Source: Bathymodiolus japonicus methanotrophic gill symbiont
GTDB lineage: Bacteria > Pseudomonadota > Gammaproteobacteria > Methylococcales > Methylomonadaceae
Reading direction: 5' to 3'
Length of the DNA: 64,000 nt
Assembly (NCBI RefSeq): GCF_019721995.1
Contig: NZ_BLYC01000001.1
Span: 372,001 to 436,000, forward strand
Made by a program: the position numbers and the translations under genes. The notes below the pieces were generated by a model that had not been told where the DNA came from, did not search any database, and worked only from the letters and a program-made list of their open reading frames with translations. Position 1 is the first letter of the stretch. Each line of letters opens with the position of its first letter. This document shows positions 3,443 to 64,000 of the stretch, in pieces.

Positions 3443-4454
3443 CTGAAGTTTCTTAGAAATTCATCAAGGAACCATTCGCAATAAAACGGCTACCACCGAA
3501 TTTACAGGGGAGCTGCTGTATTTGGGGCAAACCCTTTCAAAATCCGGATCCAAAGCCGCTTCGTCAATGATGCGGCGGATATCTGAAAAGGCGAAACTGG
3601 CTCGCCCCTTCACTTTGTGCCGACGTTCCGGATTGGTTTTTAAACGATCCGCGTAAATCCACGTCAGCGTTGTTGCCATCATACAGAAGTTCAAATGGTT
3701 GGTCACTGCCTGCGCATTTCGACACTGACTTTTCTGACTCCCTATGTCTTGCTTGAGCTCTTTGAACCCGGATTCGATTTTCCATCGCGCACCATAATAC
3801 TCAATAATCTGTGTGACGGATAAACTTAGATCGGTCGTAAACAAAGCAATCCACTGTGTGCGACGAAACACCCAGACAACCTGAACGGGTCGTTTCAATG
3901 TTTTCAGCATGACAACGCGACTATAAGCCCTGACTTCACGCTGTTTTCCATAGAGATTCACGGTATACGATCGGGCCTTTTGTTGTACTGTTTTTGCCAT
4001 CGCTGAAAATCAGGGAAACGGAGCCTAAGCGAAGTGATGATTTTTAGTCCGCGATAGCCGTAAGGCCGTTATTTTGTCGGAGTCTGAGCGTTAGCGAAGG
4101 TGGAGACAAAATAAAAGGCCATCCGACACGGCGTCAAGTCATTTGGAGCCTATGTTCCGACCCCTTGTTGGGTCGGGACGAGGTGACGAGGACGAATCGG
4201 GGCCGCCGGAGGCATAAGTGGTCGCGTTAAGTTTTTGCTGCTTGCTTGGGCTGGGATGCCCAAAACAAGCTTTCGCAAAAATAGCGACTCCCCGAGTCTG
4301 TGGCTGCCCCCAGACGCTGCCCGTACTTTTTATTCCGCCCCCTCTGCTTGGGTTTTCTTTTTTCTGGACGATCGTACAGTACATTATTGCACCTTAACCT
4401 AGAGAGAATATTAAACCGGCTTCCGATAGCTTTGTAAACAGGCTTCCATAGGCC
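3443..4454 (-). mobile_element. IS-X fragment (C-terminal part of an IS4-superfamily transposase), interrupted by RE-C
   Basis: The right end of IS-X starts at 3443 with CTGAAGTTTCTTAGAAATT. The transposase reads leftward: residues after MAKTVQQKARSY lie at 4000-3464, and the preceding segment (GLWKPVYKAIGSRF to KYGQRLGAAT) at 4454-4297. An RE-C repeat separates them. The C-terminal part carries the IS4-type Y-R-E-K signature YGARWKIESGFKELK with the catalytic Glu. The N-terminal half, including the first catalytic Asp, is missing here but survives at 25425-26684. Comparison with the copy at 44655-45371, which lacks the RE-C, shows exact insertion between CAGAC and ATGGC of the coding strand. 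The upstream edge is fused to a truncated RE-A. Not functional. Confidence 0.85.
4001..4295 (+). mobile_element. RE-C repeat, copy 1 (inside IS-X)
   Basis: A 295-base repeat starting CGCTGAAAATCAGGG and ending GCGACTCCCCGA. It contains many stems: CTGAAAATCA at 4003-4012 with TGATTTTTAG at 4038-4047, TTATTTTGTC at 4069-4078 with GACAAAATAA at 4105-4114, CCGACCC at 4157-4163 with GGGTCGG at 4170-4176, and TTGGGC at 4246-4251 with GCCCAA at 4258-4263. The uninterrupted transposase copy near 44805-44815 shows the empty site, so both ends are defined and no target duplication exists. It has no convincing protein gene. Its first about 48 bases match the left end of RE-A. Confidence 0.85.
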
Positions 4455-4551: not shown

Positions 4552-5733
<1,182 letters not shown>

Positions 5734-10149: not shown

Positions 10150-10353
10150 CTGAAGTTTCCCAATTATTGAGTAGCTGAAATACACAATGCTGGTGTATCG
10201 AGGTTTATTTTAGGTGGTTTTGCCATGTTTATAGCAAACCCCTACTTAATTTCCCTTAGGCAATAGCATTTGAAACGAATGAAAAGACTATTTTTTTCAT
10301 ATAGTTGTAGTATAGTTTCAATTTTACCATAAATAATTATTGGGAAACTTCAG
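10150..10353. mobile_element. MITE-D, copy 1
   Basis: A 204-base element with termini CTGAAGTTTCCCAATTATT and its complement. An 8-base target duplication TTAAGTAG flanks it (10142-10149 and 10354-10361). It has the same outermost CTGAAGTTTC as both ends of IS-X, so IS-X transposase is the likely mover. It lies just upstream of the start codon of the gene at 9496-10110. Confidence 0.88.
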
Positions 10354-10882
10354 TTAAGTAGTAACCCTGGATTACAAATAATAGTTCACAATTTAGCTAC
10401 GCCCCATGCCTATGTAAGAAAAGAAACGGGTAAACACAGCCTGAGAGAAATTGCCCGTATTATTGATCTGTAATAGACAGGTAACGCCACAATGTTAGGT
10501 ATTTTTTATTGTCATTAAACCATAAACAACGCTGTAGAGGTATATTACCATACCATGACTATGCTGGTTATTGCGGGTTAAGGTGGAGAATAGCATTAAT
10601 CTCGGCTTTGAGTGCATCTATCTAAGGTACGAAGTCGTCCCCAGAGCCCCGAAAGCTACGTATGGCTTTACCGGAGTCGATAGGCGACTGTAAACGAAAG
10701 GTGCTTGATTGCATCACTCAAGCGGGTGTTTCTGATTAAGCAAATAGGACTGCAACAATTATAATTTACGGCAAAGCTATAAATTTGATTAAATTCACAG
10801 CTAAAGGCTCTCATTTTTTTATAGATACAGTATAATGCGCAAATGAGTTTAGCTTTTAAGAATAGTGCTATGGAGAATATTA
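10354..10882. other. gene-poor stretch with a possible gene remnant
   Basis: Bases about 10365-10472 read as 36 codons ending in a stop (NPGLQIIVHNLATPHAYVRK to IARIIDL), which looks like the tail of a protein whose body is missing beyond MITE-D. I do not recognise it. The rest to 10820 has no convincing gene on either strand. A TATAAT at 10831-10836, about 50 bases before skp, could be the -10 box for the skp-fabZ-lpxA-rnhB-dnaE genes, though no good -35 is seen. The bamA gene commonly found before skp is absent. Confidence 0.4.
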
Positions 10883-17566: not shown

Positions 17567-18480
17567 TTTTCAGTATGGCAGGCATGATCAATAAAATGTC
17601 CATCCGCCGCTGTCAGCCCCGGACGGGCTGATAGTCTCCAGAAGGCGCAGGGAAATTTGCCAATCCGAAGTGCGCGATAGCGCGCGAGGGAGGCTAAAAT
17701 TTTATCCCGAATAGCCGTAGAGCCATTTGTGGTAGCCATGACTGAGCTGCTTTGTGCTCAGTCTGTGGCGGACGCAGGGCGGCTGGAGCATCTCCTATTC
17801 GCTGCGTAGGTGAACGAATTACGGCGACAGGAGTCCCGGAATTTCGTGAGGTAGCATGGCGCGCCTGTGCTTCTATGGTGTATTCGTCAAGTTCTGGGAA
17901 TGCTTTAAGATAATCAATGCCTTGCGATAGCAGTGTTTCAGCGTGAAGATGATAGCTCTGCTGTTCAAATGCCTCAAGCATACTTGTTCGTCTATGCGAC
18001 TTCAGTGATTTAAAATACGTTGAGTGGGGAAGCAGCTGGCCATAAATCTGTTCATTGGTTTGGAGGAAATGGCGACCACTATCGACTACACTGATACAGC
18101 GTAATAACCCAAGGAGAATAAAGTCGATATCCTTCAACTCTGGGCATGAGCGAGCCCACAAAGGATGACGCTCTGCTAACAGGGCACGTTCCATACTTTC
18201 ATTGCAGTGTTGGTGAATATGTTCAGAGAGTGGTAGGTCTTTAAGCATGGGTGATATCCGTTTATGAGGTGATTAAAACGGAAATTCTTAGAAAAATTCT
18301 TCGGCAAATGCAAGCTTTATTTGAAATTATTTGTTGTTTTTTTACGGTGCCTACAGAGTGTCTATTTGCTGTGATAAGTGATTAAAATCAAAAAGATGGA
18401 AATATTCGAGTGGTGCTACATTCAGGTAGGTTATAGGCTGCTTTGTTTAGGTACTTCTTCTTTCAATGGGAACACTGATG
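17567..18480 (-). mobile_element. IS-Y fragment (5' part), carrying RE-B
   Basis: The left terminus of IS-Y (reads CATCAGTGTTCCC on the minus strand) is at 18480, and the transposase starts at ATG 18248 (MLKDLPLSEHIHQHCN). The frame continues to 17868, is interrupted by RE-B, and resumes to about 17567, where it is fused to the sigma-factor relic. The remaining two thirds of the IS are missing. Comparison with intact IS-Y shows RE-B lies exactly between CCGC and TGCTTC of the element. Non-functional. Confidence 0.88.
17608..17867 (+). mobile_element. RE-B repeat, copy 2 (inside IS-Y)
   Basis: Full 260-base RE-B. The empty site is available in the IS-Y copies (for example around 28820 on the same strand): sequence continues directly from CATCCGC to TGCTTCTATGG. 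There is therefore no duplication or loss of target bases. The left flank ends in C, a pyrimidine. Confidence 0.9.
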
Positions 18481-30546: not shown

Positions 30547-30731
30547 TTCGCTAAGCTCCGTTTCCATGATTTTCAGCGAAGGCAATGCTGATGATTGTTG
30601 TTACCTTTGCTGTTTCTATCGGCGTGTTGCATGGGAGATTTTCATTGCAACTTGGCTTATTAACACTGGGAAGCATCCTGCTGGTTTTTATCTGGCGACT
30701 TAAAGAGGCTAGGGCGATTGCAGTTCCTGTT

Positions 30732-30885
30732 ACTCGATGTTCAAGTTTTTTAACTGATTGATTTTATTGATAATTTTACTGACAAAGAAAGCATCAACAT
30801 CATTGTAAATCAATCACTTATGAAACAAAGCCGGAAAAATTTACTTTTCTTAGCCCAGTTATAGCTGAAAACTTGAACATCGAGT
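30732..30885. mobile_element. MITE-G, copy 1
   Basis: A 154-base element with termini ACTCGATGTTCAAGTTTT and complement, flanked by a 3-base duplication GTT. An almost identical copy is at 34596-34749. It has no coding capacity. It cuts off the end of the DUF454 gene. Bases 30886-30966 to the end of bioA hold nothing recognisable. Confidence 0.88.
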
Positions 30886-30966
30886 GTTAATGACTAATAT
30901 GCGCATTAGTTTTATATCAACAAGAAAGTCTCACCATGAAGGGCTCGAGTTTTTTGAACAGCATTC

Positions 30967-34541: not shown

Positions 34542-34978
34542 CGCTGAAAATCATGGAAACGGAGCTTAGCGAAGTGTTGATTTTTAGTCCCTGATACTCG
34601 ATGTTCAAGTTTTTTAACTGATTGATTTTATTGATAATTTTACTGACAAAGAAAGCATCAACATCATTGTAAATCAATCACTTATAAAACAAAGCCGGAA
34701 AAATTTACTTTTCTTAGCCCAGTTATAGCTGAAAACTTGAACATCGAGTGATAGGCGACAGGGCAATTCGCTGATTCGACGTGTGCTAGCAGCACGCGAG
34801 AGGAGCAAGAATTGCATTCCGAATAGCCGTCCAGCCAGTGAGGTAGTAATGGCGAAGCGGCTTTTGTGCGTAGTCGTTGCGGACGCAGGGCGTTCAGGGC
34901 ATCTCCCATCCGCTGCGTAGGTGAACGAATTATGGCGACAGGAGTCCCGGAATTTCGTGAGGTAGCATGGCGCGCCTG
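34542..34978 (+). mobile_element. RE-A repeat, copy in MITE-D, split by MITE-G
   Basis: CGCTGAAAATCATGG at 34542 to GGCGCGCCTG at 34978. Subtracting MITE-G (154) and its 3-base duplication gives 280, the standard RE-A length. The empty site in other MITE-D copies reads GGCAAT joined to AGCATTTG, so this is the cleanest proof in the window that RE-A inserts without target duplication. Confidence 0.95.
34596..34749. mobile_element. MITE-G, copy 2 (inside RE-A)
   Basis: 154 bases with the same termini as 30732-30885. It is flanked by GAT on both sides; whole RE-A copies have a single GAT, confirming a 3-base target duplication. Confidence 0.92.
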
Positions 34979-44374: not shown

Positions 44375-44654
44375 CGCTGAAAATCATGGAAACGTAGCTT
44401 AGCGAAGTGGTGATTTTTAGTCCCTGATAGGCGACAGGGCAATTTGCTGATTCGACGTGTGCTAGCAGCACGCGAGAGGAGCAAGAATTGCATTCCGAAT
44501 AGCCGTCCAGCCAGTGAGGTAGTAATGACGAAGCGGCTTTTGTGCGTAGTCGTTGCGGACGCAGGGCGTTCAGGGCATCTCCCATCCGCTGCGTAGATGA
44601 ACGAATTATGGCGACAGGAGTCCCGGAATTTCGTGAGGTAGCATGGCGCGCCTG
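44375..44654 (+). mobile_element. RE-A repeat, full copy between integrase and IS-X relics
   Basis: A 280-base RE-A. The left flank is integrase coding sequence (ATTCCTT) and the right flank is IS-X coding sequence (GGCCTATGG), so this copy joins two unrelated genes. The right junction is the same as at 4454/4455. Confidence 0.9.
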
Positions 44655-58430: not shown

Positions 58431-58469
58431 AATGGTCTTGTCTTTAAAACTAGCAAAAAGAATCTAAAA

Positions 58470-58673
58470 CTGAAGTTTCCCAATAATTATTTATGGTAAA
58501 ATTGAAACTATGCTACAACTATATGAAAAAGATAGTCTTTTCATTCGTTTCAAATGCTATTGCCTAAGGGGAATTAAGTAGGGGTTTGCTATAAACATGG
58601 CAAAACCACCTAAAATAAACCTCGATACACCAGCATTGTGTATTTCAGCTACTCAATAATTGGGAAACTTCAG
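58470..58673. mobile_element. MITE-D, copy 5, upstream of argD
   Basis: 204 bases, flanked by TCTAAAA on both sides (7-base duplication). It lies between the argD start and the grxD promoter region. Confidence 0.92.
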
Positions 58674-58821
58674 TCTAAAACTCCTGCTAGTATTTTGCAA
58701 AAAGGGCTGATTATAGTTTTGTTAATTTTAATGAGCAAGCGATAATTGTTTGATAGTGATACTTTTGTTGTGTGATAAATCCTGATAAAATCACTAGGTT
58801 TTTATTTTTTGAGTAAATATT

Positions 58822-59247: not shown

Positions 59248-59311
59248 CTTAAATCTGGAAACCGGGAACAACTGACTATTCAGCTTAAAAACAATCGCCA
59301 TATTCAATAAT

Positions 59312-59515
59312 CTGAAGTTTCCCAATAATTATTTATGGTAAAATTGAAACTATGCTACAACTATATGAAAAAAATAGTCTTTTCATTCGTTTCAAATGCT
59401 ATTGCCTAAGGGGAATTAAGTAGGGGTTTGCTATAAACATGGCAAAACCACCTAAAATAAACCTCGATACACCAGCATTGTGTATTTCAGCTACTCAATA
59501 ATTGGGAAACTTCAG
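59312..59515. mobile_element. MITE-D, copy 6
   Basis: 204 bases. Flanks on the minus strand are ATTATGAA before and ATTATTGAA after, an imperfect duplication. It falls at what would be the stop codon (TAT TGA) of the membrane-protein gene on the minus strand. Confidence 0.88.
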
Positions 59516-60232
59516 TTCATAATATACCGCGATGGTAAAAAATCGTGCCACACTTGCCCATACCCGGCTGGCATGAATAGAACCAGGCGCGCCATGCTAC
59601 CTCACGAAATTCCGGGACTCCTGTCGCCATAATTCGTTCACCTACGCAGCGGATGGGAGATGCCCTGAACGCCCTGCGTCCGCAACGACTACGCACAAAA
59701 GCCGCTTCGTCATTACTACCTCACTGGCTGGACGGCTATTCGGAATGCAATTCTTGCTCCTCTCGCGTGCTGCTAGCACACGTCGAATCAGCGAATTGCC
59801 CTGTCGCCTATCAGGGACTAAAAATCACCACTTCGCTAAGCTCCGTTTCCATGATTTTCAGCGAGCGCCACACTGAAATTGTCCACCAGAATAAGGGTAA
59901 AGCCAGAATAACCAGTATGGTTAGCCAGCTTGCAATGGTGTAGGTGCCGCTATCAACACGATAATCCGCATAATACAAAGCAGCATTAAGCATAATAAAA
60001 AAGGGAAAAATACCGCCGCTAAAGGCAATTTTCCTAGCCAGGCAGATTGTAAATACATATAGATATTGGCTCGCCTGGTTTCTGCAGTACTCATCGGCGC
60101 AGGTTCATTAGCCCTGTGTGTCAGCGTCAACATATAAATAGTGTAGGCAGTTATCAATAAGATCACGCCAGTTTCTATAGGACTGATAAAGGATGTAAAG
60201 GCGAAAAAAGCCGTTAAGGAATTAATAAACAT
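59516..60232 (-). pseudogene. membrane protein of unknown function, split by RE-A and frameshifted
   Basis: Starts MFINSLTAFFAFTSFISPIE at 60232 with hydrophobic segments (ETGVILLITAYTIYMLTL and LPLAAVFFPFLL). At a run of six Ts near 60000 the frame must shift to continue IMLNAALYYADYRVDSGTYT, then ASWLTILVILALPLFWWTIS with WRC at 59864. After exact removal of RE-A (59584-59863) it reads SIHASRVWASVARFFTIAVYY and probably ended there, where MITE-D now sits. The protein has about four membrane segments and no family I know. The T-run shift may be a sequencing error; the RE-A insertion is real. Confidence 0.7.
59584..59863 (-). mobile_element. RE-A repeat, full copy in the membrane-protein gene
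   Basis: 280 bases, CAGGCGCGCC at 59584 to TTTTCAGCG at 59863. Left-end flank on the minus strand GTGTGGCGCT, right-end flank GTTCTATTC. Joined, these restore the reading frame TGG CGC TGT TCT ATT. This is the only clean genic copy whose left end comes first in the direction of the host gene. Confidence 0.92.
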
Positions 60233-62186: not shown

Positions 62187-62412
62187 TAGGTTGAGAGCCA
62201 TCCATGGCCCGGTATCAATCTAAGTGTGAGAAGGCGTTTATTCAAACTCCCCCCATGGCACGTTTGATAAATCACAGGGAATCTGTGAGGTATAGAGTAC
62301 GCCATTCGCTTTGACCCGTGGTCCGCGATAATTGCATCGATGCGAAATCTTAACTGAGATTGTCGAACAAAATTGAGACTGAGCCGCTTGCAATGAACTA
62401 AATCCACTCATT

Positions 62413-62672
62413 CGCTGTCAGCCCCGGACGGGCTGATAGTCTCCAGAAGGCGCAGGGAAATTTGCCAATCCGAAGTGCGCGATAGCGCGCGAGGGAGGCC
62501 AAAATTTTATCCCGAATAGCCGTAGAGCCATTTGTGGTAGCCATGACTGAGCTGCTTTGTGCTCAGTCTGTGGCGGACGCAGGGCGGCTGGAGCATCTCC
62601 TATTCGCTGCGTAGGTGAACGAATTACGGCGACAGGAGTCCCGGAATTTCGTGAGGTAGCATGGCGCGCCTG
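62413..62672 (+). mobile_element. RE-B repeat, copy 6 (end of PKD/Calx-beta gene)
   Basis: Full 260-base RE-B. Joining the flanks (CTCATT and TTCCATATACC) restores WYMENEWI-stop. No target duplication. The reading frame of the gene stays open right through RE-B. The 210 bases between DUF445 and this point hold no gene I recognise. Confidence 0.9.
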
Positions 62673-63142
62673 TTCCATATACCAGACAACATAATCTTGA
62701 GCCTCAACTTTGGGTTCTCTAATAATCACATTTGCTGAGCCGCCAGATGCTCCTACTGTATAGCCGGTATTTTCGATGAGCGTTAGAGTGACTGTTTCAC
62801 TACCTTCAACTTCAGTATCAGAAATGGGTGTTACTGTGCCAACTTTTGTACTCTGACCAGCAGCAAAAGTAGCAGAACTACCTAATGATTTATAGTCAAC
62901 GCCAGACGTTGCAGAGCCGCTTATTGCAAAATTAACCGTAAGCGCTACACTTAAATCTCCAGTACGAGTCAGGGTGAATTTACCTGTATCTCCGTCTTCA
63001 CTGGCTTTTGCATCTGTGGCAGCCACGCTTATTTCAGGTAATGTCTGAACTGCATCAACACTTTGTAAAGTTTCAACCGTATCTGATATTCCGTTTTTGT
63101 CAGTGACAGTAAAACTGATAATATATATATCTTTCTGACTAT

Positions 63143-63422
63143 CGCTGAAAATCATGGAAACGGAGCTTAGCGAAGTGGTGATTTTTAGTCCCTGAAAGGC
63201 GACAGGGCAATTCGCTGATTCGACGTGTGCTAGCAGCACGCGAGAGGAGCAAGAATTGCATTCCGAATAGTCGTCCAGCCAGTGAGGTAGTAATGACGAA
63301 GCGGCTTTTGTGCGTAGTCGTTGCGGACGCAGGGCGTTCAGGGCATCTCCCATCCGCTGCGTAGGTGAACGAATTATGGCGACAGGAGTCCCGGAATTTC
63401 GTGAAGTAGCATGGCGCGCCTG
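63143..63422 (+). mobile_element. RE-A repeat, full copy in PKD/Calx-beta gene
   Basis: A 280-base reference copy. Predicted stems: CTGAAAATCA 63145-63154 with TGATTTTTAG 63179-63188; GCAATTC 63207-63213 with GAATTGC 63253-63259; CGTGTGC 63224-63230 with GCACGCG 63236-63242. Flanks TGACTAT and ACGTGTGTG join in frame (THTYSQKD). Confidence 0.93.
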
Positions 63423-63891: not shown

Positions 63892-64000
63892 CGCTGAAAA
63901 TCCTGGAAACGGAGCTTTAGCGAAGTGAAGATTTTTAGTCCGCGATAGCCGTAGGGCCGTTATTTTGTCGGAGTCTGAGCGTTAGCGAAGGTGGAGACAA
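63892..64000 (+). mobile_element. RE-C repeat, copy 5, cut by the window edge
   Basis: First 109 bases of RE-C, from CGCTGAAAATCCTGG to GGTGGAGACAA. The flank before it ends TTGCGAT. The rest lies outside the window. Confidence 0.85.

Follow-up and report, generated by a model that had tools for sequence, protein, structure and literature searches.

The insertion sequences IS608 and ISDra2 transpose in single-stranded form and target the lagging-strand template; they recognize hairpins and cut related sites at both ends (PMC6006769). Members of the IS200/IS605 family have a guide tetranucleotide on the 5′ side of the hairpin foot, and their left end is bordered by a complete tetranucleotide (PMC6006769). 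The palindrome-associated transposable elements (PATEs) of Haloquadratum are non-autonomous derivatives of IS200/IS605 (PMC3119063), and REPs are repeats of 21 to 65 nt that carry a 5′ GTAG or GTGG foot and are cut between C and T (PMC6006769, PMC8266576). Class 3 Y1 proteins are associated with hairpins that have a CnGA foot (PMC6006769), and IStrons combine a group I intron with an insertion sequence (PMC4227781). Here, we compare with these systems a set of repeats found in a 64,000-nt window of the genome of the Bathymodiolus japonicus methanotrophic gill symbiont, the window being the whole stretch of DNA that was analyzed. A limited search of the open-access literature returned no earlier description of the elements.

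The repeats RE-A, RE-B, and RE-C belong as separate branches to a single mobile-element superfamily, each 260 to 300 nt long, and their ends were set by aligning 324 distinct copies. A complete RE-B (260 nt, CGCTG...GCGCGCCTG) lies at 62413 to 62672 and a complete RE-A (280 nt, CGCTG...GCGCGCCTG) at 63143 to 63422, both on the plus strand and delimited by 99 and 100 aligned copies, respectively, together with empty-site comparisons. A complete RE-C (295 nt, CGCTG...TCCCCGA) occupies 4001 to 4295 of the plus strand, as delimited by 125 aligned copies, and a second RE-C copy, 94.6% identical to it by BLAST, is cut by the window end (63892 to 64000, plus strand). Further copies include an RE-B nested in a reversed A/B element (4552 to 4811), another RE-B (17608 to 17867), and an RE-A (44375 to 44654), all on the plus strand, as well as a minus-strand RE-A that was used in the alignments (59584 to 59863). 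Between 62418 and 63603, RE-A and RE-B interrupt minus-strand reading frames whose product looks Calx-beta-like or like a surface protein, a label that comes from reading the translation, and both elements are antisense to those frames. The window also holds many insertion sequences and further short repeat families of 168 nt and about 206 nt (30722 to 30889 and 34586 to 34753; 58467 to 58674 and 59309 to 59516; 10150 to 10355).

About 1,400 near-identical element copies make up roughly 8% of the symbiont genome. In 836 kb sampled from that genome, 226 full copies were counted (85 C, 79 A, and 62 B), which scales to about 1,350 in 4.97 Mb, and all element matches together covered 8.3% of the sample. 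The RE-C right end, counted independently and alone, occurred 526 times, in agreement with the scaled total. Identity among copies of one type was mostly 97 to 100%, and therefore the copies appear to have spread recently. The RE-C right end was present in 93 of 311 Methylococcales genomes. Named carriers include mussel methanotroph symbionts, Methylobacter, Methylovulum, Crenothrix, Methylomonas, and Methylotuvimicrobium, and the cultivated Methylotuvimicrobium buryatense 5G and Methylobacter tundripaludum SV96 are among them. A few records with this right end are labeled as other bacteria and may be contamination. One plasmid record matched, that of Methyloprofundus sp. INp10, and none of the phage records searched did; with this as the nearest named plasmid, Methyloprofundus is the probable genus of the symbiont. 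The RE-C right end also occurred in six viral-contig stretches (L379 to L384), and one contig with several of them could be a mislabeled bacterial contig.

The element types are mosaic, with left ends, bodies, and right ends shuffled between families such that A and C have a left end in common and A and B a right end. At L097/L102:874-1471, a B-type copy directly adjoins a C-type body. Palindromic copies made of two facing left ends are rare (L141:568-750, L128:3494-3539, and L133:5077-5103), and a single copy in the sample, the 100-nt RE-A/B at L121:7260-7359, has its middle deleted between two GGCGACAGG repeats. In other genomes, remnants of about 30 to 50 nt that consist of the RE-C right end only stand downstream of host reading frames (L316, L322, L344, and L363) and may be either truncated copies or ends reused as terminators. 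We conclude that the family consists of gene-free, non-autonomous mobile elements, spread order-wide in Methylococcales, that share a conserved fold and insert by a rule that fixes one target base.

The fold was already suspected in the initial annotation, which read the differences between RE-A and RE-B as paired changes that preserve stems. The stems are present. The central hairpin pairs CGTGTGC (63224 to 63230) with GCACGCG (63236 to 63242) in RE-A and GTGCGC (62475 to 62480) with GCGCGC (62485 to 62490) in RE-B. It is enclosed by GCAATTC (63207 to 63213) and GAATTGC (63253 to 63259) in RE-A, such that the whole feature spans 63207 to 63259, and by GGG-AAATTT (62455 to 62463) and AAATTT (62502 to 62507) plus CCC (62511 to 62513) in RE-B, where it spans 62455 to 62513. 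The left-end stems of A, B, and C also agree with their first description; the left-end hairpin is formed by CTGTCAGCC/GGCTGATAG in RE-B (62415 to 62439, a nine-pair stem) and by CTGAAAATC/GATTTTTAG in RE-A (63145 to 63188). In the overall plan, the left hairpin begins 2 nt inside the left end; P1, a helix of long range, closes a branched domain with helices P2 to P5; and a right-end hairpin follows and leads into (G)CCNN. In RE-B, the P1 arms are CTCCAG (62441 to 62446) and CTGGAG (62588 to 62593), and in RE-A, they are CCCTGA (63190 to 63195) and TCAGGG (63338 to 63343), all features being on the plus strand. When folded as single-strand RNA, RE-B and RE-C did better than their shuffles (z of −4.55 and −4.21, respectively), and the RE-A copy of the window did no better than its own (z of −0.48). 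The evidence for folding of RE-A is comparative, not thermodynamic.

Comparison of copies indicated that pairing is kept while sequence changes. The left stem kept 111 of 117 base pairs over 13 distinct arm pairs across relatives, and P1, which reaches across about 150 nt, kept 134 of 154 over 22 distinct arm pairs; for neither helix did any of 10,000 shuffles equal the observation. Arms as different as CUCCAG/CUGGAG (B), CCCUGA/UCAGGG (A), and CCCCGAU/AUCGGGG (a relative of C) form P1. Two alignments were then scored, A2 with 25 A/B-type sequences and A4 with 26 C-type sequences from several genera. Both sides had changed in 20 of 61 base pairs in A2, where 95.4% of cells were paired, and in 27 of 76 base pairs in A4, where 94.4% were paired. 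In both alignments, none of 500 shuffles equaled the observed number of paired cells, both-side-changed pairs, or both-side-changed cells or the covariation score; 36 of 500 shuffles for A2 and 7 of 500 for A4 did equal the number of further pair types. Sliding the partner by 1 to 3 columns lowered pairing to 27 to 53%. Because shuffles ignore relatedness, a tree-aware null was added in which the observed substitutions were placed randomly along a FastTree tree, in our own implementation and not R-scape itself. Under that null, 4 of 61 structure pairs in A2 and 8 of 76 in A4 had an E of <0.05, and the significant C-type pairs sit in P1, P2, the central hairpin, P5, and the right-end hairpin. 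Covariation beyond phylogeny was found in several helices.

The pair that scored highest bears directly on the stem around the central hairpin. A C-G/U-A exchange in the enclosing stem (pair 26-72 of A2; 17 CG and 8 UA among the 25 A/B-type sequences) was the top covarying pair of all 27,966 and had an E of 0.0002 within the structure under the tree-aware null. When all column pairs of the 25 to 26 sequences were tested, none fell below an E of 0.05, because the subfamilies are in linkage; significance is limited to the structure-restricted test and depends on a structure whose prediction came from these very alignments. Helix wobbles were unequal, with 351 G.T cells versus 58 A.C cells (six to one), and the listed strand is therefore the one selected to fold, be it as RNA or as single-stranded DNA. 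Nor do A and B stand as the only comparison, a circumstance under which the initial annotation would have given up its reading: their relatives within the genus are 69 to 100% identical, and C-type copies reach other genera. We conclude that the paired changes exceed chance and that covariation across species and genera strongly supports selection for one strand, as RNA or single-stranded DNA, to fold. The mobility, the insertion rule, and the strand bias of the elements, which lay beyond the reach of the initial annotation, change the probable purpose of the fold.

Insertion was exact. The joined flanks of elements inside other repeats were compared with uninterrupted copies of those repeats, and about 160 copies had matching paralogous empty sites, mostly clean, which indicated insertion between two adjacent bases without loss or duplication. 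Only one base of the left flank is fixed, a C at position −4 in 319 of 324 copies; C is avoided at −5 and G at −1, and the right flank is nearly free of base preference. This C-N-N-N target reads CATT to the left of RE-B (62409 to 62412) and CTAT to the left of RE-A (63139 to 63142), both on the plus strand. The rule extends to 28 of 29 A/B-type relatives and to 25 of 26 C-type copies across genera whose left end is correctly set, L299 being the exception and L291 being left out of the count for its mis-set left end. Moreover, the elements end in a similar motif. RE-A and RE-B end in CCTG (63419 to 63422 and 62669 to 62672, respectively, plus strand), and their relatives mostly end in CC followed by TG, TA, AG, or AA. 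RE-C ends in CCCC and two further bases (GA in 77, AA in 20, GC in 14, and GT in 6 of 125 copies, the remainder of the element being nearly identical), a variation that is partly linked to subfamilies. In these element ends, a C thus sits four bases before the right cut, with the same C-N-N-N spacing as in the target.

Orientation was biased as well. The listed strand lay on the G-rich strand in 170 full copies and on the opposite strand in 56 (binomial p of 1.5e-14 for the 226 copies, which are not fully independent of one another), and orientation followed GC skew across 20-kb pieces with a Spearman rho of 0.47; some contigs (L142 and L149) run against the trend. Taking GC skew as a sign of the leading strand, we conclude that the folded strand is preferentially in the lagging-strand template. 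Only 71 of 180 tested copies lay inside open frames versus 73% of random positions, and copies in genes are therefore depleted.

Exact insertion, the C-N-N-N motif at both places, and orientation by GC skew together suggest single-strand DNA transposition into the lagging-strand template, and we think that the elements probably move as folded single-stranded DNA, like an IS200/IS605 derivative. In such a scheme, a Y1-type HUH tyrosine nuclease acting in trans, either IS200/IS605-like or TnpA-REP-like, would bind the terminal hairpins and cleave after C-N-N-N at both element ends and in the target, and the folded circle would be joined into the single-stranded lagging template. The internal fold would be maintained by a requirement in cis: it would either draw the two ends close to each other or act as an RNA.

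The Y1 loci examined in the symbiont genome and its relatives included no Y1 gene between ends of the element type. No autonomous element emerged from left ends without the body, ends around Y1 genes, or the left-end pattern in sparse genomes, nor from the RE-C right-end pattern in 311 genomes and named genomes. IS200 copies in the symbiont genome were broken, and IS200 genes near elements were rejected as cognate movers, since they turned out to have inserted into elements or next to them, and matches near the Y1 loci were insertions into IS200 or adjacent to it. One intact Y1 gene was present in the symbiont genome (L098:1204-1878, minus strand), a 225-aa frame that is TnpA-REP-like by size and motifs; its flanks are AAAGGGGACG and CGTCCCCTTT repeats, which are unrelated to the element ends, and are without an LE-like hairpin. 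The enzyme that moves the elements may since have been lost or may be of an unrecognized class.

With no cognate Y1 gene in the genome or its relatives, the mover could be another single-strand recombinase acting on folded DNA, such as an integron-type tyrosine recombinase or an enzyme of a novel class. Folded single-strand substrates and a lagging-strand bias are also features of attC-type recombination. The integron core, however, is GTT or GWT, and the C-N-N-N rule, repeated at the right end, fits two-site HUH cleavage better, so we regard this alternative as unlikely. Spread through RNA, with a structured transcript entering the lagging-strand template by reverse transcription or reverse splicing in a SINE-like or ribozyme-like manner, would readily explain the large internal fold and the G.U tolerated in its RNA-like strand, and endonuclease-less group II introns likewise have exact ends, no target duplication, and a lagging-strand bias. 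The initial annotation had pointed to group II introns. That lead came to nothing: at the gathering threshold, Rfam intron domains were unmatched, as was every other Rfam model, and the RVT_1 matches tested were defense types (DRT3a, UG17, and retron VI) with no intron-type reverse transcriptase among them. These defense genes lie at L211, L213, and L214 and comprise UG17, DRT3a, which has a neighboring second frame, and a gene resembling retron type VI. Moreover, truncated copies were balanced (18 5′ truncated and 20 3′ truncated), whereas target-primed reverse transcription would favor 5′ truncation, and the flanks vary too much for an intron to target them by base pairing. Spread through RNA is on this evidence quite unlikely, and we give little credence to its boldest form, a self-propagating structured RNA that inserts next to C-N-N-N in the lagging-strand template as a bacterial SINE counterpart unrelated to known introns.

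The stems conserved well away from the ends could instead belong to an RNA that functions as a guide or in regulation, either omega-RNA-like or host serving, to which mobility is secondary. The HEARO model, the other lead of the initial annotation, had no match here: Rfam returned nothing at the gathering threshold for the whole window and only two chance-level matches, with an E above 4, for RE-A and RE-B. In two relatives, the same model did pick up true HEARO RNAs next to IscB genes (L245:1214-1444 and L246:1207-1445), and the search method therefore works. IscB (PF14239) and TnpB (PF07282) were absent from the element-rich genome, and some 1,400 near-identical copies, more than a third of those tested inside open frames, look selfish; a primary guide or regulatory role is improbable. 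Finally, self-splicing of the elements from transcripts, as in IStrons, would make sense of exact insertion, since removal would restore the target. In-frame copies were antisense in 48 cases and sense in 23, the opposite of the expectation for splicing, and RE-A and RE-B are themselves antisense to the frames that they interrupt, which makes self-splicing highly improbable.

If movement as folded single-stranded DNA is right, methane-oxidizing bacteria harbor an order-wide family that combines the insertion habits of a single-strand transposon with a large internal fold under selection. The family would provide a very large natural data set on recognition of a folded strand and a one-base target, and it raises the testable question of what a transposon without genes needs its middle for.

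Compared with described systems, the elements resemble the HEARO or IscB omega-RNA (RF02033) as possible structured RNAs of about 200 to 300 nt in mobile DNA, and that assignment was rejected with the model unmatched and IscB absent from element-rich genomes. Like IStrons, they may have a structured RNA within a mobile element; they differ in having no group I or group II intron match and in an orientation in genes that speaks against splicing. Like REPs and REPINs with their TnpA-REP (RAYT), they are hairpin-bearing repeats present in hundreds of copies and probably moved in trans by Y1 (PMC6006769, PMC8266576), but they are 260 to 300 nt long, lack a GTAG foot, and are cut after C-N-N-N. REP/REPIN identity was rejected, as the element sequences have neither the 5′ GT[AG]G foot nor the 21- to 65-nt hairpin unit. 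The class 3 Y1 proteins and their hairpins with a CnGA foot may hint at a link to the elements. Like PATEs, the elements are too short for a transposase, have palindromes near their ends, make no target duplication, and occur as dispersed near-identical copies (PMC3119063); they differ in lacking a related Y1 element among the loci examined, in the terminal position of the left hairpin, in fixing only one target base, and in having a large covarying fold that extends through the interior. With IS200/IS605, they share insertion without target duplication or loss (about 160 empty sites) and an orientation bias toward the lagging-strand template (170:56). They are not filed as members of that family because its defining features were tested and are lacking and the cognate transposase was not found: in place of a fixed tetra- or pentanucleotide left target, they fix C at −4 only; in place of a subterminal hairpin with a guide tetranucleotide, their left hairpin starts 2 nt inside the element; and a large conserved fold runs through the whole element.
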